Assembly (NCBI GenBank): GCA_013204105.1
Contig: JABMOM010000003.1
Span: 62,001 to 126,000, forward strand
DNA: 64,000 nucleotides
Origin: Flavobacteriales bacterium
GTDB lineage: Bacteria > Bacteroidota > Bacteroidia > Flavobacteriales_G > Salibacteraceae
Direction: 5' to 3'
Shown here: one piece after another, positions 44,497-55,330 of the stretch
How the letters are laid out: each line of letters starts with the position of its first letter
Numbering within the stretch: position 1 is the first letter of the stretch
Position numbers and translations under genes: made by a program
Notes under the pieces: generated by a model
Databases searched by the model: none
Seen by the model: only the letters and a program-made list of their open reading frames with translations
What the model was told of the DNA's origin: nothing

Positions 44497-46956
44497 TCAC
44501 TCCGTCGATGACAACTCGGGAAGGGTAACCGTTAACTTGGTGCCTACTCCTTCTTCCGACACATAGCTCACCTCTCCGTCAATGTTCTTGGCAGATTCTC
44601 TTAGGATGTACAATCCCAATCCGGAACCCGGCACGGTGCTGGTACCTCGAAAGAAGATGTCCCAGATTTGATCCTCGTGGTCTTTTTTAATGCCAATGCC
44701 ATTGTCTTCAATTTCTAGAGTCAGTTTTCCTGCTTCATTTCTGGCGCGAATCGCGATGAAGGGCTTGTCCTTTTTCGGATCGGCGTATTTGATCGCGTTG
44801 GAAAGTAGGTTGTTGATGATGATCCGGATGCGCAGGGCATCGCTGTGGATGGTGAGGGCATCGTCTACTTCGATGAAGTAATCCAGATTGTCGTAGTTCG
44901 ACATGTATACCAAGTCGTTCATGCATTCGTCCAAGACCTTCTTAAGCCGCACCTCTTCAGGGTGAACATCCAGCCTCTTGTTTCTAGAATAGTCGATTAC
45001 ATCCCTTATGTATCGATCCAGGCGGTCCAAGGCCTCTCGCTGCATGGAGAGAATGTTGTTGAGTTCACCTTCGTCTTCTGCCTCTTCGGCCAGGGAGTTG
45101 AGACCAAGCACAGAAGCGATTGGTGCACGGAGGTCGTGGGAAATGCTGTAGACGAAGCGGTCCAGTTCCTTGTTGAGTTGGTTCAACTCATCGTTTCGGC
45201 CTTCCAACCGGAACTGCGCCCGTTTGATTTCATTGATATCGAACGAATACCCGATCAAGAATTTCTTGACCGATCGTCCTTCTTTGAAGTGTACGGGAAC
45301 AAGATTGCGAATGTGGTAAGTATCTCTACCGTCTCGCGTTTTCATTTTTTCTTCCCACCGAATGGAGAGTTCGCCTCGCAAGGCTTCCTTGACCCTCTCA
45401 TCCCTCAGTTCTGCAAAACTTGTTTCTAAGTTCCGATATTGAACGTAATCTAGATCGTTTTTCCCAATTAAGAATTGGCGGAGTTGGTCGTCTGCAATCG
45501 CGTTCTTGCTGATGTAGAAGTACTTTCCATTCTCGTCGACCAGTACACACTCCACTGGGATGTTATCGAGTACGTTTTGGTAGAACTCGCGCGTGTCAAG
45601 AAGTTCCAGCTCTTGGTTTTTTAGCTCTGTACGATCCTGCACCGTTCCGAACCACTCCACCGAACCGTCGCCTACGGACTTCTGGCTAGTGTAATAGAGA
45701 AACTTCATCTCTCCCTCCGGGGTCTTGTACCAAGAACCGAATTCGAACGCCTTGTTCATTGAGGATGATCGTTCCAGCCCGACCGTCATTTCGTCTAAGG
45801 TCATGTCTAAGAAGCCCTTGCACCAGACATCAAAGGAATCCGCAAAATCTGACGGCAAGAAGCCGTGAATATTGGCCCATTCTCCGGACCACTCAACGCG
45901 ACCTTCCTTTGGCATAGCCCGCCAGTTTCCGACCTTGGCAAGGCGCTGTGCCTCTCTCAATTGACGTTCGCTCGACTGCAGTAAATCTGTCTGCTCTTGT
46001 TGAGGCGTAACATCTGCAATCGTACCCACCAAGAAAACTTCCCCAGCCTCGTGTACTTTGCTGCTGCTCAACCGACCCCAAAAGGTGGAACCATCTTTTC
46101 GTCGATACTTCAGCAACATGTTGGTTACCCTACCAAACTTTTCAATGCGCGAAAGCAAGGTGTCGCGATCTGATTTTGACTCGTATAAATTCACGGGATG
46201 AATGCCCATCACTTCTTCCTTTGAGGCATATCCATACATCTTAGCAAAGGCGTCGTTGACGTATTCCAATCCTTGTGTGACGGATGACTTAAAGATCGCC
46301 TCATCCATGTTGTCGCTGATGGTTTGTAGGATGGAGGCATCGCGCTCAGAGACCTGCCATGTGGCAAGGGTACGTGCAGAGCGAATACGATTGGTTTTCT
46401 GCAAGACCACTCCCATCATGATTACCAGGATAACGGAGAAGGTAAACGACGTAAAGCGCATTATTTCCAGCTCGACCGGGGCCAAGGAAACGTACGCCAA
46501 GTCGAAAAAATAGATAATGGCAATCCCTACGATCGAAACCACGAAGTACGTAGCCAGCATGTTGAAGACTTGTGAGGCCCGTCTTCTAAAAAGGAAGACG
46601 TACATCAGGAGGCAGATGAGCAGAACGAATTGGAAATTGGTATCGTCTCCGTAGTAGCCTACTACAGACAGCATGAGCACCGCAGGATCCATCACAAAGA
46701 TCCATTTGGCAAGGCCATAGGCACGACGCCTGTTCGCTTCCAAAGTAGAGACCGCTGCCACGAGATGCATCAAGAGTATGGCGGTAGTAAAGACCGAATG
46801 TTGAGGTACGAAGATGTAGGAGGGAATGACTCCCAGTATCATCAGTATCGCACCCTGCACCTTGATGGAGTTGACCACTTTGATCTCATCCACCAACTCT
46901 TCAGGCGTATCCTCATACACCCCTAATCTGACCAGTCGTTTAAAGAGTTTTTTCAC
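44497..46956 (-). CDS. Membrane-bound PAS sensor histidine kinase
   Basis: An 819-residue hybrid of an N-terminal membrane region (five or six hydrophobic segments, about residues 28-195), three PAS domains (about 205-325, 335-450 and 455-585), a HisKA dimerisation domain with phospho-acceptor His607 (SISHDLRAPIASVLG) and an HATPase domain with N box (INNLLSNAIKYAD), G1 box (EDNGIGI) and G2 box (GSGLGLYIL). PAS 1 and 2 show the GRLSSSKV and GTIADVT patterns of sensory PAS folds. No receiver or response-regulator gene is adjacent. It overlaps the uvrC stop by 4 bases (ATGA), so it is cotranscribed with uvrC. The signal is unknown. Confidence 0.9.
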   Translation of the reverse strand: MKKLFKRLVRLGVYEDTPEELVDEIKVVNSIKVQGAILMILGVIPSYIFVPQHSVFTTAILLMHLVAAVSTLEANRRRAYGLAKWIFVMDPAVLMLSVVGYYGDDTNFQFVLLICLLMYVFLFRRRASQVFNMLATYFVVSIVGIAIIYFFDLAYVSLAPVELEIMRFTSFTFSVILVIMMGVVLQKTNRIRSARTLATWQVSERDASILQTISDNMDEAIFKSSVTQGLEYVNDAFAKMYGYASKEEVMGIHPVNLYESKSDRDTLLSRIEKFGRVTNMLLKYRRKDGSTFWGRLSSSKVHEAGEVFLVGTIADVTPQQEQTDLLQSSERQLREAQRLAKVGNWRAMPKEGRVEWSGEWANIHGFLPSDFADSFDVWCKGFLDMTLDEMTVGLERSSSMNKAFEFGSWYKTPEGEMKFLYYTSQKSVGDGSVEWFGTVQDRTELKNQELELLDTREFYQNVLDNIPVECVLVDENGKYFYISKNAIADDQLRQFLIGKNDLDYVQYRNLETSFAELRDERVKEALRGELSIRWEEKMKTRDGRDTYHIRNLVPVHFKEGRSVKKFLIGYSFDINEIKRAQFRLEGRNDELNQLNKELDRFVYSISHDLRAPIASVLGLNSLAEEAEDEGELNNILSMQREALDRLDRYIRDVIDYSRNKRLDVHPEEVRLKKVLDECMNDLVYMSNYDNLDYFIEVDDALTIHSDALRIRIIINNLLSNAIKYADPKKDKPFIAIRARNEAGKLTLEIEDNGIGIKKDHEDQIWDIFFRGTSTVPGSGLGLYILRESAKNIDGEVSYVSEEGVGTKLTVTLPELSSTE

Positions 46957-48779
46957 GTTCGCGAACGAAAATAGTCAACTATCGCCTTCGCTTGGGCCAC
47001 TGTAGAAACGGTGGCCAGCTCTTCTTGACTCAGTTGTTTAATCCGTTCCAAGCTGTAGAATACACGCAGAAGCTCTTTCGCGGTCTTCTCGCCTATACCA
47101 TTAATCTCCAATAATTCGCTCTGAAAGGCATTCTTGCTGCGCTTGTTTCGGTGATGCGTTATCCCAAAACGATGCGCTTCATTCCGCATGCGCTGGATGA
47201 TCTTTAGCGACTCCGAACGTTTGTCGATGTAGATGGGGATTGGATCCTCGGGAAAGAAGATCTCTTCGAGTTTTTTTGCAATACCGATCACCGCAACCTT
47301 TCCTCTCAGCTCAAGTTTGTCGAGGCTTTTGACCGCCGAGCTCAGTTGGCCTTTTCCACCGTCCACAACGATCAGTTGTGGGAGCGATTGATTCTCGTCT
47401 ATCAATCGTTTGTAGCGCCGATAAATCACCTCTTCCATGGAGGCAAAATCATCGGGTCCTTCCACCGTCTTGATGTTGAAATGACGGTAGTCTTGCTTGC
47501 TAGGCTTGGCATCTTTAAAAACGACACAAGCCGCCACGGGAAAACTTCCGTGGAAATTTGAATTGTCGAAGCATTCGATGTGTACCGGCAATGCCGAAAG
47601 GCGAAGGTCTTCCTTCAAGGTCTTAAGCACACGATTGGCATGTCGATTCGGGTCAATTTTATCCTGGGCCTTTTGTCGATCCAGCATGAAGAAACGCAGG
47701 TTTTTGAGCGAGAAATCGATCAATGCTTTCTTATCGCCTCGTTGTGGATGATGAAATTCGGCATGCTCCCATTCGGCACTCACGTCTATGTTAACAAGGA
47801 TCTCCTTGGCTGAACTTTGAAACACGGAACGCATCTCTGCCACTGCCGTAAGCAAAAGGTCTTCCTTGTCCTCGTCCAATTTTTTCTTGAATTCCAGGGA
47901 ATGGCTTTGGATGATGGCGCCGTTGACAACGCGCATGAAATTAACGTAGGCGAATGCATCATCCGCCACTACGCTGGCCACATCCACGTCTCGAATGACG
48001 GGGCTTACTACCACGGATTTACTCTGATAATCCTGCAGTAGATCGTTGTTGGCCTTGAGTTGCGCAGCGAGCTCAAAGTCCAATGCTTCAGCTGCGACCT
48101 GCATGCGTTCCTTGGTCGCTTTGATTACTTCATCCACATCCCCTTTAACCAGTTTTCGAATTTCGTCGATGCTCGCGTTATAGGACTCCTCCGTTTGTCT
48201 GCCTTCACATGGTCCTAGGCAATTTCCGATGTGGAACTCTAGGCAGACCTTGAATTTTCCTTTCTGAATGTTCTCCTCACTCAGTGCATAATTGCACGTA
48301 CGGACCTTGTGCAACTTGGTGGCAAGGCCTAGTACCGCCTTCATTCGTTTTACCGAGGCATAGGGGCCGAAGTACTCGGAGCCATCACGTACCACATTCC
48401 TTGTTGGAAAAACCCTAGGAAAACGCTCCTTCTTGATGCATATCCAAGGGTAGGTCTTATCATCCCGCAATTGGATGTTGTACTTCGGCTGATGCTCTTT
48501 GATCATCGAGTTCTCGAGCAACAAAGCTTCAAACTCATTCGCGACAATGATGTGCTCTACGTGACGGATTTTTTTGACGAGCAATCGGGTCTTGCCGCTT
48601 TCGTAGCGGTCCCGATTGAAATAGGAGGATACCCGCTTTCGGAGATCCTTTGCCTTTCCGACGTAGATGATCTTTCCATCCTTGTCGAAATACTGATAGA
48701 CCCCCGGCTTGTGGGGTAAGTTGGAGACCTTCTCCTTCAATTCATCGCTGTGGTAACTCTCGTCGCTCATGCGCCGCAA
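46953..48779 (-). CDS. uvrC: Excinuclease ABC subunit C
   Basis: A 608-residue nucleotide excision repair nuclease. The N-terminal GIY-YIG nuclease (KPGVYQYFDKDGKIIYVGKA) makes the 3' incision, a UVR domain (about residues 205-240, for UvrB contact) follows, then an RNase H-like 5' incision domain (HIECFDNSNFHGS, IVVDGGKGQL) and a terminal helix-hairpin-helix (INGIGEKTAKELLRVF). Length is normal. It is divergent from the merR gene, and the 126-base gap carries a candidate operator 26 bases before its start codon. The PAS kinase gene follows with a 4-base overlap. Confidence 0.95.
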   Translation of the reverse strand: MRRMSDESYHSDELKEKVSNLPHKPGVYQYFDKDGKIIYVGKAKDLRKRVSSYFNRDRYESGKTRLLVKKIRHVEHIIVANEFEALLLENSMIKEHQPKYNIQLRDDKTYPWICIKKERFPRVFPTRNVVRDGSEYFGPYASVKRMKAVLGLATKLHKVRTCNYALSEENIQKGKFKVCLEFHIGNCLGPCEGRQTEESYNASIDEIRKLVKGDVDEVIKATKERMQVAAEALDFELAAQLKANNDLLQDYQSKSVVVSPVIRDVDVASVVADDAFAYVNFMRVVNGAIIQSHSLEFKKKLDEDKEDLLLTAVAEMRSVFQSSAKEILVNIDVSAEWEHAEFHHPQRGDKKALIDFSLKNLRFFMLDRQKAQDKIDPNRHANRVLKTLKEDLRLSALPVHIECFDNSNFHGSFPVAACVVFKDAKPSKQDYRHFNIKTVEGPDDFASMEEVIYRRYKRLIDENQSLPQLIVVDGGKGQLSSAVKSLDKLELRGKVAVIGIAKKLEEIFFPEDPIPIYIDKRSESLKIIQRMRNEAHRFGITHHRNKRSKNAFQSELLEINGIGEKTAKELLRVFYSLERIKQLSQEELATVSTVAQAKAIVDYFRSRT

Positions 48780-48804: not shown

Positions 48805-48834
48805 TGTTTAGCATTTACAAGCTTTCTTTAAACA
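48805..48834. promoter_or_regulatory. Candidate operator 1, TGTTTA-N18-TAAACA
   Basis: An inverted repeat with 6-base arms (48805-48810 and 48829-48834) separated by exactly 18 bases. It lies in the shared gap between the divergent uvrC and merR genes, 26 bases before the uvrC ATG and 72 before the merR ATG. The same arms and spacing occur twice before the sigma-factor gene. It is probably bound by the MerR/CarH-like regulator; that is inference. Confidence 0.65.
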
Positions 48835-48905
48835 CATTTTCGAGAATATTACCTTAGTCAGCGAACATCCTGATAACCTCTTGTGTTATAGCGGGATTAA
48901 AGATT

Positions 48906-49790
48906 ATGGGAGTATATTCAATCAAGGACTTAGAGCAGCTGACGGGGATCAAGTCCCACACCATCCGAATATGGGAACAACGGTATGGGATTATTGAGCC
49001 CAAGCGCACCGATACAAACATCCGATTTTACGACGATGAGCAGTTGAAATTCCTTCTAAATGTAGCCCTGCTCAGTCGCCATGGCTACAAGATCTCCAAG
49101 ATTTCAAAGCTTTCTGAAGTCGCGTTTAAGGATGAAATCGAGAAACTCTACGAGCAGACCTTGATTCACAATACCGATGTGATATTGGACCTAGACGCCA
49201 ATGATCTCATGGTTTCGATGATCGACATGGATGCCGAGAAATTTCATCGGATCTATGAAAACTCTGTCAAGAACAATGGCTTCGAGCGCACCATTACACA
49301 CTTGATCTACCCGTTCCTTGAAAAGGTGGGCATCCTTTGGTCTATTGGTCAGGTTAACCCATCGCATGAACATTTCATCTCTTGCCTGATTCGTCAAAAG
49401 GTGATCGCTGGCATTGATCGACTGCCAAATCCTTCCACCGGGAAAAAATTCCTCCTCTTTCTACCCCAAGGTGAGCACCACGAAATTGGCTTATTAATGG
49501 CGAGTTTCTTGCTAAAGAAGAATGGCTGCATTGTCTACTACATGGGTCAAAACCTTCCTGACAAGGATATCGAATCATCCATTGTCACCATTCATCCGGA
49601 TGCTGTGCTGACCTTTTTTGTGGATCCCGCCGTTCTCACTCAGGCTGCCGAAACAGTGCAAACAATAATCAAATGGTGCGGGGATTGTGAAATTTTAATC
49701 GCTACCCGACCTGCTCCGCAACTCGATGAAATCAAGCATAAGAACCTGCACTTCCTGCACGGCATCGCGGATCTAGAGAACTATTTCTGA
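48906..49790 (+). CDS. MerR family regulator with B12-binding photosensor domain (CarH/LitR-like)
   Basis: A 294-residue regulator. Residues 3-72 form the MerR winged helix (YSIKDLEQLTGIKSHTIRIWEQRYGII). A helical bundle (about 75-170) carries W145-x9-E155-H156, and a Rossmann-like B12 domain (about 182-290) carries the cobalamin motif E190-x-H192-x-x-G195. In Thermus CarH the matching residues (W131, E141, H142, H177) bind adenosylcobalamin; the protein represses in the dark and is released by light. The residue after Trp145 is Ser, whereas CarH has His132 there. Downstream sigma, carotenoid and photolyase genes fit a light-responsive repressor. Confidence 0.88.
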   Translation: MGVYSIKDLEQLTGIKSHTIRIWEQRYGIIEPKRTDTNIRFYDDEQLKFLLNVALLSRHGYKISKISKLSEVAFKDEIEKLYEQTLIHNTDVILDLDANDLMVSMIDMDAEKFHRIYENSVKNNGFERTITHLIYPFLEKVGILWSIGQVNPSHEHFISCLIRQKVIAGIDRLPNPSTGKKFLLFLPQGEHHEIGLLMASFLLKKNGCIVYYMGQNLPDKDIESSIVTIHPDAVLTFFVDPAVLTQAAETVQTIIKWCGDCEILIATRPAPQLDEIKHKNLHFLHGIADLENYF

Positions 49791-49862
49791 CCATCTTCCT
49801 GCCTAGTCCCTGCGATTACTTAACACTTCGAAAGTCTCTATTTTAAAGGCATTCAGTGTTTT

Positions 49863-49892
49863 TGTTTATACTTTTCGTGATTTTGTTAAACA
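49863..49892. promoter_or_regulatory. Candidate operator 2, TGTTTA-N18-TAAACA
   Basis: Second copy of the inverted repeat (arms 49863-49868 and 49887-49892, 18-base spacer) upstream of the sigma-factor gene. It lies just before the -33-like TTG of the candidate promoter, a position compatible with repression or activation by the MerR-like protein. Confidence 0.65.
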
Positions 49893-49897
49893 TTTTC

Positions 49898-49928
49898 TTG
49901 CAGGAAAGGATGTTTGGACCTGCATTTG
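49898..49928 (+). promoter_or_regulatory. Candidate Bacteroidota-type promoter for the sigma/carotenoid operon
   Basis: A TTG at 49898-49900 and TGCATTTG at 49921-49928 (seven of eight positions of the Bacteroidota -7 consensus TAnnTTTG) are separated by 20 bases. Transcription would start near 49935, giving a short leader before the ATG at 49959. This is a pattern match, not a measured start. Confidence 0.4.
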
Positions 49929-49956
49929 TTTAAGTTTAATCAAAAAACATTAAACA
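49927..49956. promoter_or_regulatory. Candidate operator 3, TGTTTA-N18-TAAACA
   Basis: Third copy (arms 49927-49932 and 49951-49956, 18-base spacer). It overlaps the end of the candidate -7 box and ends 2 bases before the sigma-factor ATG, so a bound protein would cover the expected transcription start. The TTAAACATT context also occurs at operator 2. Confidence 0.65.
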
Positions 49957-49958
49957 TT

Positions 49959-50468
49959 ATGTCAACCGTAGAATTCAATCAGCAGATTCTTTCCTTCCGC
50001 AAGCCGCTCGAGTATTTCGCATTCAGCTTAACGCACAACGACGATGACGCGCAGGATTTGGTGCAGGATACGTACATGAAAGCCGTTGCATACAAAGACA
50101 AGTTCAGGGAGGCGACCAATCTAAAGGCATGGATGTACACCATCATGAAGAATACCTTCATCAACAATTACCGACGTCAAATTAAATCGAGGACGATCAT
50201 TGATCAATCCGAAGACCTATATTATCTTTCTAATGCTCCGGATGCCAGAGATAAGCATCCAGGCAGCATGTACAACCACGGCGAGATTTTCAAAAGCGTC
50301 AACGCTTTGCAGGAGGAATACCGCATTCCCTTTAACATGCACAACGAAGGATATAAATACAAGGAGATCGCAGATTACTTGAAGCTTCCTATTGGAACCG
50401 TTAAGAGTCGCATTTTTCTTGCTCGTAAGAAGTTGATGGATGTCCTAAGTGACTACAATCCCAACTAA
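49959..50468 (+). CDS. ECF-type RNA polymerase sigma factor
   Basis: A 169-residue extracytoplasmic-function sigma factor. I chose the ATG at 49959 (MSTVEFNQQIL) over an upstream TTG at 49914. Region 2 spans about residues 8-78 (DDAQDLVQDTYMKAV, TNLKAWMYTIMKNTFINNYRR) and region 4 about 110-162 (YKYKEIADYLKLPIGTVKSR). There is no anti-sigma gene nearby, so control is more likely by the upstream MerR/CarH-like repressor, as for LitR/LitS in Streptomyces. It is 8 bases upstream of crtI and probably directs transcription of light-induced genes. Confidence 0.9.
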   Translation: MSTVEFNQQILSFRKPLEYFAFSLTHNDDDAQDLVQDTYMKAVAYKDKFREATNLKAWMYTIMKNTFINNYRRQIKSRTIIDQSEDLYYLSNAPDARDKHPGSMYNHGEIFKSVNALQEEYRIPFNMHNEGYKYKEIADYLKLPIGTVKSRIFLARKKLMDVLSDYNPN

Positions 50469-50476
50469 TCGCACTC

Positions 50477-51943
50477 ATGCCCACCACCACCGTCATCGGG
50501 TCCGGGTTCTCGGCGCTTTCGGCAGCTACATCGCTCGCGGACAAGGGACATGAAGTAACCGTCCTAGAGAAAAATGATTCTCCCGGAGGTCGTGCCCGCA
50601 AGTTCGAAACCGATGGTTTTGTCTTTGACATGGGACCGAGTTGGTATTGGATGCCCGACGTGTTCGAAAAGTATTTTGAGCGCTTTGGCAAGTCTCCTTC
50701 TGATTACTACGAGCTCAAGCGCCTTGACCCTTCATATCGGGTTTATTTCGAAGACGAATGCATGGACATTCCCGCCAATTTCGAACAACTTCAGGCGCTC
50801 TTCGAAGCCAAAGAAAAAGGGGCGGGGGCGCGTTTAGCTTCGTTTCTTGAAGACGCCGCAATCAAGTACGATGCTGGGATCAATGACCTCGTCCATCGTC
50901 CAAGTCTCTCGCCTTTGGAATTCATCGATTGGAAGGTGATCAAAGGACTCTTTCAGCTCGATCTCTTCTCTAACTTCAAGGATTTCGCTCGGAAGTATTT
51001 CAGCGATCCCAAGTTGCTCAGCATCATCGAATTTCCTGTTCTCTTTCTTGGCGCAATGCCGAAGGAAACTCCTGCTCTGTACAGCTTGATGAACTATGCC
51101 GACTTGAAACTTGGTACGTGGTACCCCATGGGCGGAATGCACAAAATCGTAGAAGGAATGGTAGCCCTGGCCAAAGAAAAAGGGGTGAAATTTCAGTTCA
51201 ATCAAAACGTTGAACGCATTTATGAAGATGGCGACATGAAGGTAGTCACTCCATCCGGCACGGTCTCTTCAGACTATGTGGTAGGAGGTGCCGACTACGC
51301 GCACATCGATCAAGCCTTGTTGGATCCAGCCGATCGGCAGTACAGTACGGCTTACTGGGACAAGCGGGTTATGGCCCCTTCGAGCTTGCTTTTCTACGTA
51401 GGAGTCAACAAGCGGGTCAAAAACCTGCTCCATCACAACCTCTTTTTCGACGCTGATTTTAACGCCCATGCGGAGGAGATCTATAAGTCCAAGCAATGGC
51501 CCAAGCATCCGCTGTTTTACGTATGCGCGCCGTCGGTGACGGATCCATCCGTCGCTCCTGAGGGGTATGAAAATCTTTTCTTCCTCATCCCCATCGCTGC
51601 GGGCATTGATGGTGATTCAGACGAAGTGCGTGAGCGCTACTTCCGAATGATCCTCGAGCGCATCACAAAGCAGACGGGTGAAGACATTTCCGAAAACATC
51701 GTTTACAAAAGAAGTTACGCGGTAAAAGAATTCGTGGAAGACTACAATGCTTTCAAGGGCAATGCCTACGGACTCGCAAACACCTTGCTCCAGACCGCCT
51801 TTTTAAAGCCAAGAATCAAACACAAGAAATTGAAGCACCTATACTTTACTGGCCAGTTGACGGCGCCGGGACCTGGCGTTCCTCCATCGCTTATCAGCGG
51901 CCAAGTAGTTGCCGATCATATAGTTAAACACAACTTGAATTGA
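50477..51943 (+). CDS. crtI: Phytoene desaturase, CrtI type
   Basis: A 488-residue FAD-dependent carotenoid desaturase. The N-terminal dinucleotide fold reads VIGSGFSALSAATSLADKGHEVTVLEK with PGGRAR (positions 5-41), followed by FDMGPSWYWMPDVF. The C-terminal CrtI signature is in YFTGQLTAPGPGVPPSLISG. It converts colourless phytoene to neurosporene or lycopene by successive desaturation. It is 8 bases after the sigma gene and shares its stop region with the crtB start. The final desaturation product cannot be predicted from sequence. Confidence 0.93.
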   Translation: MPTTTVIGSGFSALSAATSLADKGHEVTVLEKNDSPGGRARKFETDGFVFDMGPSWYWMPDVFEKYFERFGKSPSDYYELKRLDPSYRVYFEDECMDIPANFEQLQALFEAKEKGAGARLASFLEDAAIKYDAGINDLVHRPSLSPLEFIDWKVIKGLFQLDLFSNFKDFARKYFSDPKLLSIIEFPVLFLGAMPKETPALYSLMNYADLKLGTWYPMGGMHKIVEGMVALAKEKGVKFQFNQNVERIYEDGDMKVVTPSGTVSSDYVVGGADYAHIDQALLDPADRQYSTAYWDKRVMAPSSLLFYVGVNKRVKNLLHHNLFFDADFNAHAEEIYKSKQWPKHPLFYVCAPSVTDPSVAPEGYENLFFLIPIAAGIDGDSDEVRERYFRMILERITKQTGEDISENIVYKRSYAVKEFVEDYNAFKGNAYGLANTLLQTAFLKPRIKHKKLKHLYFTGQLTAPGPGVPPSLISGQVVADHIVKHNLN

Positions 51944-51945
51944 CC

Positions 51946-52782
51946 ATGAAAGAGCTCTTTGACAACGTCAGTTTGCAAGCCAGCAAGATCACGACACGAT
52001 CATACAGTACTTCATTCTCATTGGGAACTCGCTTCCTAGGGCCATCTGTTCGCGATGCCGTTTACTCGATCTACGGGTTCGTGCGTTTCGCGGATGAAAT
52101 CGTAGACAGCTTTCACGGCTACGATAAAGAACGCCTGCTCGATAAATTTCGGCGAGACGCGTATGAAGCCATCGAAGACCGCATCTCGCTCAACCCGATT
52201 CTCAATAGTTTTCAGCACGCCGTGCACAACTATGGCATAGAACGGGAATTGATCGATACGTTTCTAGAAAGTATGCGCATGGATCTCGACAAGAAAAACT
52301 ATTCCAGACAGGGTTATGAGCAATACATCTTGGGAAGTGCTGAAGTGGTCGGATTGATGTGCTTGCGTGTATTCGTGCAAGGCGACGATGAGATGTACAA
52401 CCGTCTCCAGCAACCCGCTATGCGTCTAGGTTCAGCTTTTCAGAAGATCAATTTCCTACGCGACATGAAGGCCGATTTCGCCGAGATGGGAAGAACCTAT
52501 TTTCCTGGCATCGACATGCAGAACTTCAACGACAATGAAAAGAAGCGCATCGAAAAGGAAATCGAAGAGGATTTCGCGGAAGGATATGCCGGCATCATTC
52601 AACTTCCAAAGAATTCGCGCTTTGGGGTCTACATGGCATACGTGTACTTCTATCAGCTCTTCAAGAAGATCGAACGCACCCAAGCGATCGATATCCTGAA
52701 GGCCAGGATCCGTATTCCGAATCAACATAAGTACGCCATTTTTGTAGAGAGCTACCTCAAGCACAGCCTCAACTTGATATGA
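51946..52782 (+). CDS. crtB: Phytoene synthase
   Basis: A 278-residue squalene/phytoene synthase that condenses two geranylgeranyl diphosphates to phytoene. Both Asp-rich substrate-Mg motifs are present: ADEIVD (in YGFVRFADEIVDSFHGYD) and RDMKAD (in KINFLRDMKADFAEMG). TRSYSTSFSLGTRFL and YILGSAEVVGLMCLRVF are family landmarks. I chose the ATG at 51946, with an alternative TTG at 51940 overlapping the crtI stop. The stop overlaps the start of the next gene by 4 bases. Confidence 0.93.
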   Translation: MKELFDNVSLQASKITTRSYSTSFSLGTRFLGPSVRDAVYSIYGFVRFADEIVDSFHGYDKERLLDKFRRDAYEAIEDRISLNPILNSFQHAVHNYGIERELIDTFLESMRMDLDKKNYSRQGYEQYILGSAEVVGLMCLRVFVQGDDEMYNRLQQPAMRLGSAFQKINFLRDMKADFAEMGRTYFPGIDMQNFNDNEKKRIEKEIEEDFAEGYAGIIQLPKNSRFGVYMAYVYFYQLFKKIERTQAIDILKARIRIPNQHKYAIFVESYLKHSLNLI

Positions 52783-53279
52783 AGCAATGGGCAGTAATAG
52801 TATTGTGCTTGGCCTTGACAAGCGGCATACGGGCGAACGACCCCGACAAGGTCAGAAGCACCTTCATGCTGGCTACCCAAGATTTGGATTTGCGGGCAGG
52901 TCTAGTGGAGGGCTTGCGTGTCAATAAAGGTGGCGATCCTTCTTTTCGGTCTGCCTACCTAGGCGCTTCTTTGACATTACTTGCCGAATGCTCCTTGGCT
53001 CCATGGACTAAGTACAAGCAATTCGTGCAAGGAACTGAACTCTTGGAAGAAGCAATTGCTGCCGAACCCAATGAAACCGAGTTTAGGTACCTGCGCTTCA
53101 TCATTCAAATCAATGCGCCGTCGTTCCTAAATTACGATGAGAATCTTAAGGAAGACTACCTAGCCATCAAGAACACTTTCAGCGATTCAACCGAGGAAGC
53201 CCTCTGGATGAAACACTATCGATCTTTCGAGAAACAACATGGAAAAATAATCCGAGAGCAAGTAGACATAGCCCAATGA
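52779..53279 (+). CDS. Secreted protein of unknown function in the carotenoid operon
   Basis: A 166-residue protein with an N-terminal signal peptide (MKQWAVIVLCLALTSGIRA, cleavage about residue 19). The mature part is helical with TPR-like spacing (LGASLTLLAECSLAPW, LLEEAIAAEPNETEFRYLRFIIQ) but no clear repeat family. It overlaps crtB by 4 bases and idi by 4 bases, so it is translated in series with carotenoid enzymes. I do not recognise it. A role in carotenoid placement in the envelope is a guess from context only. Confidence 0.75.
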   Translation: MKQWAVIVLCLALTSGIRANDPDKVRSTFMLATQDLDLRAGLVEGLRVNKGGDPSFRSAYLGASLTLLAECSLAPWTKYKQFVQGTELLEEAIAAEPNETEFRYLRFIIQINAPSFLNYDENLKEDYLAIKNTFSDSTEEALWMKHYRSFEKQHGKIIREQVDIAQ

Positions 53280-53800
53280 TCATGGAAAAAGTAATCCTCG
53301 TAAACGAAGACGATCGCTCCACTGGATGGATGGAGAAAATGGAAGCCCACCGGAACGGAGTCTTGCATCGCGCCTTCTCGGTGTTCGTTTTCAATGACAA
53401 AGGAGAAATGCTGATCCATCGGCGGGCTCTTGATAAGTACCATTCAGGTGGCTTGTGGACGAATGCCTGTTGCAGCCACCCACGGGAAGGGGAGACCACA
53501 GAAGAGGCAGCGCACCGCAGACTCATGGAAGAAATGGGCTTTGACTGCGATATCCAAGAGCAATTCTCATTCATCTACCGCGCTGAGTTGGACAATGACT
53601 TGATCGAGCACGAACTCGACCATGTATTCTTCGGCCGTTTCAACGGCAACCCGGTTCCCCACCCTGAGGAAGTGTGTGAATGGAAGTACGTTTCCTTGCA
53701 GGCGCTCCATCGAGACGTGAACATGCGCCCTGGAGCCTATACCGAGTGGTTCAAGATCGCGCTGAATGAGATCCGAAGCAAGAAAACGGCCTTCGTATAG
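53276..53800 (+). CDS. idi: Isopentenyl-diphosphate delta-isomerase, type I
   Basis: A 174-residue Nudix-fold isomerase converting isopentenyl diphosphate to dimethylallyl diphosphate, the primer for isoprenoid chains. It has VLHRAFSVFVFN, the active-site Cys in WTNACCSHPREGE, and the Nudix-like RRLMEEMGFDC with metal-binding Glu; HELDHVFFGRF follows. The frame begins ATG-ATC-ATG; the second ATG at 53282 (MEKVILVNEDD) is an equally good start. Its place between crtB and the photolyase genes ties precursor supply to pigment synthesis. Confidence 0.93.
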   Translation: MIMEKVILVNEDDRSTGWMEKMEAHRNGVLHRAFSVFVFNDKGEMLIHRRALDKYHSGGLWTNACCSHPREGETTEEAAHRRLMEEMGFDCDIQEQFSFIYRAELDNDLIEHELDHVFFGRFNGNPVPHPEEVCEWKYVSLQALHRDVNMRPGAYTEWFKIALNEIRSKKTAFV

Positions 53801-53814
53801 TAAAAGCACGAATC

Positions 53815-54027
53815 ATGGAACCATTGGACCACCTAAACATCAATCGGGAGGCAATAGACGCTAACCGATTCAACCCAACGGCAAAAAACATTATCGTTCC
53901 GTTCATCGCGTCAGGGATCGACGAATACGACTGCGTAGACACCTCAAAGGCCCACCCTCGTGGCAGGTGGCTTGAACGCTTACAACGACATGAGCGCATC
54001 AAACGATTGAGTTATGCCCGGCCCTAA
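53815..54027 (+). CDS. Small protein of unknown function, 70 residues
   Basis: A short open frame 14 bases after idi, overlapping the photolyase start by 14 bases. The product is polar with no membrane segment or signal: it includes HLNINREAIDANRFNP, VPFIASGIDEYDC and a basic C-terminal part HPRGRWLERLQRHERIKRL. I do not recognise a family. Its exact fit between two operon genes, ATG start and balanced composition support a real gene; the overlap means the photolyase may depend on its translation. Confidence 0.6.
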   Translation: MEPLDHLNINREAIDANRFNPTAKNIIVPFIASGIDEYDCVDTSKAHPRGRWLERLQRHERIKRLSYARP

Positions 54028-55330
54028 ACAAGCAATATCCCTCTTCTGGTTTCGGCGCGACTTACGCCTCGAAGACAACCATGGACTTTACCAAGCGCTG
54101 AAGGACGGAAAGAACGTTCAACCCATCTTCATTTTTGACAGCAACATCTTAGACAAACTAGAGGATAAAGATGACCGCAGGGTCAGCTTCATCCATGCGC
54201 AACTCGTCAAGATCGAAGCCCAATTAAGCCAATTCGGAGCGCATTTATGGGTCTTCCACGGAAATCCAATCGATGTCTTCCAACTGCTCGTAAAAGACTA
54301 CTCCATCGAGGCGCTGTATGCCAATCGCGATTACGAACCATACGCCAGAGACCGCGACAAGGCCGTTCACACACTACTAGAATCGAAGGGCATTCGGTTC
54401 CGGGCTTTTAAGGACCAAGTCATTTTTGAGAAGGAAGAAGTGATGAAGGACAACGGTGAGCCGTATGTGGTTTATTCCCCCTTTATGCGCAAATGGAAAA
54501 GCATCGTGACCGAGGATCACTTTGCGCCCTACCCGAGCGAGGAACAGACACAACATTTCCACCGATCTGAGCGAGGCAAAATGGTCTCGATTCAAGCCCT
54601 CGGCTTTGGGCAACACCCTGCCGATTGGAACGATGCAGAAGTTGATCTGTCAGTCGTCAAGCACTACCACCAAACGCGCGATCTACCTGGGAAGCCTGGC
54701 ACTAGTCGACTATCTCACCACCTGCGATTTGGAACGGTAAGTATTCGAGCCTTGATGCGCATCGGCAGGGATCTGAATGAAAAATGGTACAACGAGCTCA
54801 TCTGGCGGGAATTCTACCAAAGCATCCTGTGGCATTTCCCCCGTGTGATCAGCGAGAGCTTCCGAAAAGAATACGACCACATCGAATGGAGGAACAATGA
54901 GGCTGAGTTTGAAGCTTGGTGCGAAGGCCGTACCGGTTACCCCATCGTAGATGCCGGTATGCGCGAACTGAATCAGACCGGATTCATGCACAACCGGGTG
55001 CGCATGATTGTCGCCAGCTTTTTGACCAAGCATTTACTGATCGACTGGCGCTGGGGCGAAGCCTATTTCGCAAGAAAACTGATTGACTTTGACCTGGCCT
55101 CAAACAACGGAGGATGGCAATGGGCAGCGGGATGTGGTGTAGATGCCGCGCCTTACTTCCGGGTTTTCAATCCCTACCTACAAACGGAAAAATTCGATCC
55201 AGACCAGACCTATATTCTACGTTGGGTACCTGAAGTTGGTACGGACCAATATCCAGATCCAATTGTAGATCACAAATTCGCAAGAAACCGGGTACTAGAA
55301 GTGTATAAGGCTGCCCTAAAGCCAAGCTAA
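54014..55330 (+). CDS. phrB: Deoxyribodipyrimidine photolyase
   Basis: A 438-residue cryptochrome/photolyase family protein. The N-terminal alpha/beta antenna domain starts LFWFRRDLRLEDNHGLYQAL; the FAD-binding domain contains WREFYQSILWHFPRV, RTGYPIVDAGMRELNQTGFMHN (split at positions near 315-338), RMIVASFLTKHLLIDWRWGE and NNGGWQWAAGCGVDAAPYFR. These are class I CPD photolyase signatures, which repair UV-induced cyclobutane dimers using blue light. It is the last gene of the sigma-carotenoid operon and converges on paaB with a 22-base gap. Confidence 0.93.
   Translation: MPGPKQAISLFWFRRDLRLEDNHGLYQALKDGKNVQPIFIFDSNILDKLEDKDDRRVSFIHAQLVKIEAQLSQFGAHLWVFHGNPIDVFQLLVKDYSIEALYANRDYEPYARDRDKAVHTLLESKGIRFRAFKDQVIFEKEEVMKDNGEPYVVYSPFMRKWKSIVTEDHFAPYPSEEQTQHFHRSERGKMVSIQALGFGQHPADWNDAEVDLSVVKHYHQTRDLPGKPGTSRLSHHLRFGTVSIRALMRIGRDLNEKWYNELIWREFYQSILWHFPRVISESFRKEYDHIEWRNNEAEFEAWCEGRTGYPIVDAGMRELNQTGFMHNRVRMIVASFLTKHLLIDWRWGEAYFARKLIDFDLASNNGGWQWAAGCGVDAAPYFRVFNPYLQTEKFDPDQTYILRWVPEVGTDQYPDPIVDHKFARNRVLEVYKAALKPS

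Follow-up and report, generated by a model that had tools for sequence, protein, structure and literature searches.

The 64-kb window, by which we mean the whole stretch of DNA that was analysed, contains a gene for a MerR-type regulator with B12-binding domains (carH) between a divergent uvrC and a predicted operon that begins with an ECF-type sigma factor and continues into carotenoid genes. Three palindromes, hereafter operators 1, A and B in the putative sense, lie in the two gaps on either side of carH. The features are as follows.

46953..48779 (ATG at 48770), minus strand: uvrC, the divergent neighbour (Pfam UvrC domains)
48805..48834, no strand: operator 1, a single palindrome, exact match, in the gap between the divergent uvrC and carH
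48906..49790, plus strand: carH, MerR-type HTH and B12-binding domains (Pfam MerR_1 and B12-binding_2, match to CarH in the PDB, alignment)
49863..49892, no strand: operator A, upstream member of the pair before the sigma-crt operon, exact match
49898..49900, plus strand: -33 element (TTG) in the promoter predicted for the sigma gene, offset from operator A as in relatives, in the arrangement TTG-N20-TGCATTTG
49921..49928, plus strand: predicted -7 element TGCATTTG, one mismatch to TAnnTTTG, strict in relatives at the same position
49927..49956, no strand: operator B, lying across the sigma gene's expected transcription start and 5' UTR, exact match, conserved
49959..50468, plus strand: ECF-type sigma factor, heading the predicted target operon (Pfam Sigma70_r2 and Sigma70_r4_2)
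50477..51943, plus strand: crtI-like phytoene desaturase (Pfam Amino_oxidase)
51946..52782, plus strand: crtB phytoene synthase (Pfam SQS_PSY)
52779..53279, plus strand: crt-associated 166-aa protein, function unassigned, no Pfam match, homologues adjoin crtB/idi in relatives
53276..53800, plus strand: NUDIX protein, idi-like (isopentenyl-diphosphate isomerase; Pfam NUDIX)
54014..55330, plus strand: DNA photolyase/cryptochrome family (Pfam DNA_photolyase and FAD_binding_7)

The position of the 166-aa gene (52779-53279) between crtB and idi is kept in other crt operons. A short reading frame at 53815-54014, immediately before the photolyase gene and overlapping its start, gave no match in a Pfam search.

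The regulator has the domain order of CarH/LitR proteins, with a MerR HTH at the N terminus and, after it, the helical and Rossmann domains that bind B12 (MerR_1 and B12-binding_2 were above the Pfam cutoff and B12-binding was below it, at 23.3 vs 32.1 bits), and it matches Thermus thermophilus CarH in the PDB (5c8d/3whp, E about 4e-22). As in that family, the photosensing motif W145-x9-E155-H156 and the axial H192 are invariant in 19 homologues, and W-x9-EH and the lower axial histidine of the window protein align to 3whp/5c8d. By analogy, Bacteroidota CarH would be predicted to form an oligomer that depends on AdoCbl and to leave the DNA upon illumination. In our alignments, the DNA-binding wing reads R-T-x-T-N-I-R in Bacteroidota CarH vs R-T-P-G-G-H-R in Thermus CarH, a difference that would be compatible with another mode of reading DNA but is no proof of one.

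A preliminary description of this DNA had reported three copies of TGTTTA-N18-TAAACA, at 48805, 49863 and 49927, all within the two gaps flanking the merR gene (carH), and had judged an origin by chance to be very unlikely. Consistent with this, the pattern has these three exact matches in the window and no other, at exactly these coordinates and inside those gaps, against a dinucleotide-shuffle expectation of 0.00, and allowing two mismatches yielded merely three further scattered matches. The entire genome (3,106,204 bp) holds four palindromic sites and 0 matches to the reversed-pattern control. Three of the four lie within 1.15 kb around carH, and the fourth (G000:C25:67725-67754, equal to L005:8726-8755) lies a few bases upstream of the start codon (ATG) for a secreted fasciclin (FAS1) protein with four domains. 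An equal density genome-wide, which the description had named as evidence against its claim, was not what the scan found, as 4 sites in 3.1 Mb are unevenly spread. Its distance of 26 bases from operator 1 to uvrC is right if uvrC starts at the TTG at 48779, with 25 bases between, but the likelier ATG at 48770 leaves 34 bases. Few close relatives keep operator 1 (L007 and L012 exactly, L013 with one mismatch), and no recognisable promoter was found beside it by eye in the window sequence. Because it is weakly conserved and lies outside a recognisable promoter bracket, we regard it as no more than a candidate autoregulatory site, and any role at uvrC or carH as tentative.

Arm spacing and position at the sigma-gene promoter

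Homologues of carH were present in 48 of 60 relatives, and in most of the carH-bearing relatives two palindromes stand 63-65 bp apart in the carH-to-sigma gap. To define the motif more widely, 80 named Bacteroidota carH loci from five orders (Flavobacteriales, Cytophagales, Chitinophagales, Saprospirales and Bacteroidales) were selected by protein similarity alone. Here, a spacer of N18 between the arms was counted 61 times and N19 nine times, with every other spacer from 0 to 39 counted 0-2 times each. The logo of 140 distinct sites gave the extended motif TTTGTTTAAyn-WWW..WWW-nrTTAAACAAA, in which the arms are fixed by construction and the informative columns are those outside and between them. 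One-base variants numbered 47, with change most frequent (18) at half-site position 5, a free position of TnnACA. In a genome of the same genus (L162, G001:C25:9000-15600), the sole carH is distant (34%) and lies near FAS1 and an operator pair 41 bp apart; possibly, the local carH was replaced.

Housekeeping promoters of Bacteroidota carry a -33 TTG and a -7 TAnnTTTG element. In the window, operator A ends 5 bp before the -33 TTG, and the last two bases of the -7 element are the first two of operator B, in agreement with the earlier suggestion that this palindrome (numbered operator 3 there) covers the expected transcription start of the sigma gene. Taken alone, the one-mismatch promoter is no rarer than chance in the window, and we call it because its position is conserved in relatives; the nearest relative (CarH 88% identical) has TACATTTG at the -7 position. 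A strict TTG-N19-21-TAnn-TTTG/C promoter was found between or across the operators in 26 of 55 pair loci, compared with 0.2% of shuffled segments, and in nearly all of these 26 the end of operator A is 4-6 bp from the TTG. The pair distance before the sigma gene is usually 44, 54-55.5 or 63-65 bp, and the end (G) of the -7 box falls at position 22, 10-12 or 2 of operator B, respectively. Because the distance from A to the TTG is constant and the -7 position moves through B in steps, operator A is fixed relative to the promoter and operator B shifts by roughly one helical turn per step.

Distribution of the motif and the genes behind it

We next compared the occurrence of the motif with that of carH by pattern searches of 196 genomes of the class, of which 124 have CarH and 72 do not. 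The loose pattern gave 314 sites vs 118 reversed controls in the CarH-positive genomes and 55 sites vs 76 reversed controls in the CarH-negative ones. The loose sites in the latter (family f41 and others) were discarded as candidates, being nearly all without the extended core and at the control rate. The strict extended pattern was present in 86 of 124 CarH-positive vs 1 of 72 CarH-negative genomes (Fisher p=5e-24, which is optimistic because genomes and loci are phylogenetically related, as are all p-values here other than that of the within-genus test), and its control gave 2 matches in all. Within the 11 genera that hold both kinds of genome, 19 of the 20 site-bearing genomes are CarH-positive (within-genus permutation p=1.5e-5). 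The presence of the motif therefore tracks the presence of carH, which supports the earlier proposal of an operator family of a Bacteroidota B12 photosensor. Likewise, loci of carH, sigma and crt genes throughout the class carry the motif, the absence of which from related sigma/crt operons had been named beforehand as an outcome that would count against the proposal.

The strict N18 form is absent from 38 of the 124 CarH-positive genomes. At carH, four CarH-positive genomes lacking N18 sites show N19 sites that match exactly, and the N18 sites of a fifth carry one mismatch. In family f10 (L193-L196, L209 and L210), carH is present and no recognisable operator was found at carH; this family may have evolved another CarH site. 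Thus, the palindrome as CarH operator is not universal among CarH-positive Bacteroidota. The single CarH-negative genome with a strict site (G181) has a crtI contig that begins inside crtI, and its carH may have been lost to an assembly gap. In a genome that is 82% complete (G039), sites are present and carH was not found. Scanning the crtI loci of eight CarH-negative genomes that retain crtI revealed no exact or one-mismatch site.

To see what else may be controlled, 40 site-bearing regions were read, most of them unlinked to carH; as they were chosen for holding a site, they inform on content and not on frequency. Sites precede sigma (SigC) and photolyase genes (L150, L152, L165 and L169), crtI/crtB (L153 and L167), a Caroten_synth/crt cluster (L145) and genes for FAS1 proteins (L151, L160-L162, L164 and L168). 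Others stand before genes for GTP cyclohydrolase I (L176) and 6-pyruvoyl-tetrahydropterin synthase (PTPS, L146), DUF2805 and photolyase-type genes (L156), a TetR/ABC1-kinase pair (L158) and SRPBCC-like genes (L159 and L166, with weak or no Pfam support). Secreted DUF4397 proteins, which have sites before their genes in five regions (L147, L170, L172, L175 and L178), are a candidate photoprotection family. A site upstream of a bacteriorhodopsin-family gene (L155:2574-2603, genome G040) suggests that at least one genome places a rhodopsin under B12/light control.

Proposed dark repression and competing explanations

From the sites, their geometry, the promoter phasing, the content of the regulon and the co-occurrence with carH, we propose, with a probability of roughly 85%, that TGTTTA-N18/19-TAAACA is the operator of Bacteroidota CarH, at which AdoCbl-CarH would repress from A and B in the dark and let go in the light. 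The assignment of CarH as the binder, repression, control by AdoCbl and light, and bridging or cooperation between A and B are modelled on CarH proteins that have been characterised (PMC9304148). CarH loaded with AdoCbl would, in the dark, bind one palindrome per symmetric protein unit. At the sigma-crt promoter, it would occupy two palindromes on the same helix face. Protein at operator A would adjoin the -33 box on its upstream side, and protein at operator B would cover the -7 box, the transcription start or both, leaving RNA polymerase no access; the two operators could be held by one bridging tetramer or by two units side by side. Light would break the Co-C bond, CarH would disassemble or release the DNA, and the sigma factor and carotenoid genes would be expressed, together with fasciclin, photolyase and other photoprotection genes elsewhere in the genome.

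Instead of repressing in the dark, CarH, as a member of the MerR family, could bind these sites as a classical activator or combine activation with repression, and operator A does end just upstream of the -33 box, a position allowing contact with RNA polymerase. Classical MerR activators, however, are bound between the -35 and -10 elements of promoters with over-long spacers, whereas here the operators flank a promoter of normal N19-21 spacing or overlap its outer parts, with operator B reaching across the -7 box or the start. Further, the CarH proteins characterised so far, like PmlR2, act as repressors (PMC9304148, PMC9758184), and overall we consider activation unlikely. It is distinctly improbable that another transcription factor, co-inherited with carH, binds the palindrome, with CarH using nearby 11-bp tandem TnnACA repeats of the kind that make up its known operators (PMC9304148). 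Co-occurrence by itself cannot identify the binder, but tandem 11-bp direct repeats were not enriched in 61.7 kb of carH flanks (4 pairs vs 3.0 in shuffles, 0 triples), the half-site of the palindrome itself fits TnnACA, and a non-exhaustive survey of the annotated site regions found no second regulator beside carH.

The sites precede the sigma gene in many genomes, as they would if the ECF sigma factor beside carH, and not CarH, read the motif in autoregulation. We give this little credence, because a symmetric palindrome also stands before crtI without an intervening sigma gene (L180-L182) and before FAS1 and rhodopsin genes, the promoter between the operators matches the housekeeping Bacteroidota consensus, and one CarH-negative genome with a SigC homologue near crtI (L211) is devoid of the motif. 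Finally, we rejected RNA hairpins (a terminator or leader structure) as barely plausible, since weak folds at operator B (-7.8 kcal/mol, z -2.3) and at the FAS1 site (-9.5 kcal/mol, z -3.7) contrast with operators 1 and A, which fold no better than shuffles, and with 47 changes confined to a single arm and two-change sites of which 5 are compensatory vs 74 that are not.

Overall, strong comparative evidence points to the palindrome as the docking site of CarH, in a layout that differs from every CarH operator we found described in the open-licence literature. It also seems likely that inverted TnnACA half-sites 24-25 bp apart are used Bacteroidota-wide, with a double operator phased so as to hold the promoter from both ends across about 4, 5 or 6 helical turns. 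If so, CarH would assemble on DNA in another way than head to tail, the arrangement of the Thermus structure, and the phylum would share a light regulon that in places includes rhodopsin. CarH is an optogenetic and photochemical model in wide use, and to our knowledge its operator is known solely as tandem 11-bp repeats; a sharply defined, distinct operator across one phylum would offer a test of the same photoreceptor fold reading a symmetric site. Bacteroidota are major pigmented, rhodopsin-bearing bacteria of surface waters whose light regulation is poorly known, and the motif could serve as a genome-readable label for their light regulon. The paired sites, set in steps of about one turn around a fixed promoter, provide a model of repression by cooperation or bridging that can be tested, and family f10, with carH and no recognisable operator, would suit a study of specificity change.

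Comparison with known operators

In the open-licence literature, we found no description of a Bacteroidota CarH operator, of the TGTTTA/TAAACA motif or of a Bacteroidota light regulon. Light-induced carotenoids of Chryseobacterium lacus (PMC7064467) were considered as a precedent and set aside, having been reported without a car/lit regulator. The element between or overlapping the operators, at a fixed distance from A, is of the housekeeping type of the phylum and would be the promoter being controlled.

CarH operators of Thermus thermophilus, Bacillus megaterium and Myxococcales consist of 11-bp tandem repeats, nnnnTnnACAn (PMC9304148). The Bacteroidota sites resemble them in that TAAACA, found in all sites, is an instance of TnnACA, in their location at the -35/-10 region of carotenoid promoters and in a cognate regulator with the same domains and B12 signature. 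They differ in that the half-sites are inverted and 24-25 bp apart (N18/N19).

Class II LitR operators of Pseudomonas, T(G/A)TACA-N12-TGTA(C/T)A, serve LOV-protein-controlled regulators, whose light-inducible targets include PhrB (photolyase), CryB (cryptochrome) and FolE (PMC9758184). Both systems have two separated TGTnnA/TnnACA-like hexamers per site, an overlapping regulon (photolyase, folE and cryB) and two sites per promoter, one near -35 and one between start site and start codon; correspondingly, the predicted promoter lies between operators A and B or is overlapped by them. The spacer, by contrast, is 18/19 in Bacteroidota vs 12 in Pseudomonas, where the hexamers are TGTACA, and TGTTTA/TAAACA arms at N12 spacing had 0 exact matches in the 80 carH loci.

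The CarA operator of Myxococcus xanthus was described as two inverted repeats bound cooperatively by two dimers, within a contiguous stretch of ~55 bp that was later read as five 11-bp repeats; the inverted repeats are not conserved outside Myxococcus/Corallococcus, and CarA is B12-independent (PMC9304148). Paired inverted repeats at a carotenoid promoter are thus common to both systems, whereas the contiguous ~55-bp operator and the B12 independence set CarA apart. The preliminary description had called the operator previously undescribed, and this stands for the inverted N18/N19 arrangement of half-sites and the phased pair at the promoter, which are new against the open-licence literature, but not for the half-site, which is the TnnACA already known from other CarH operators (PMC9304148).
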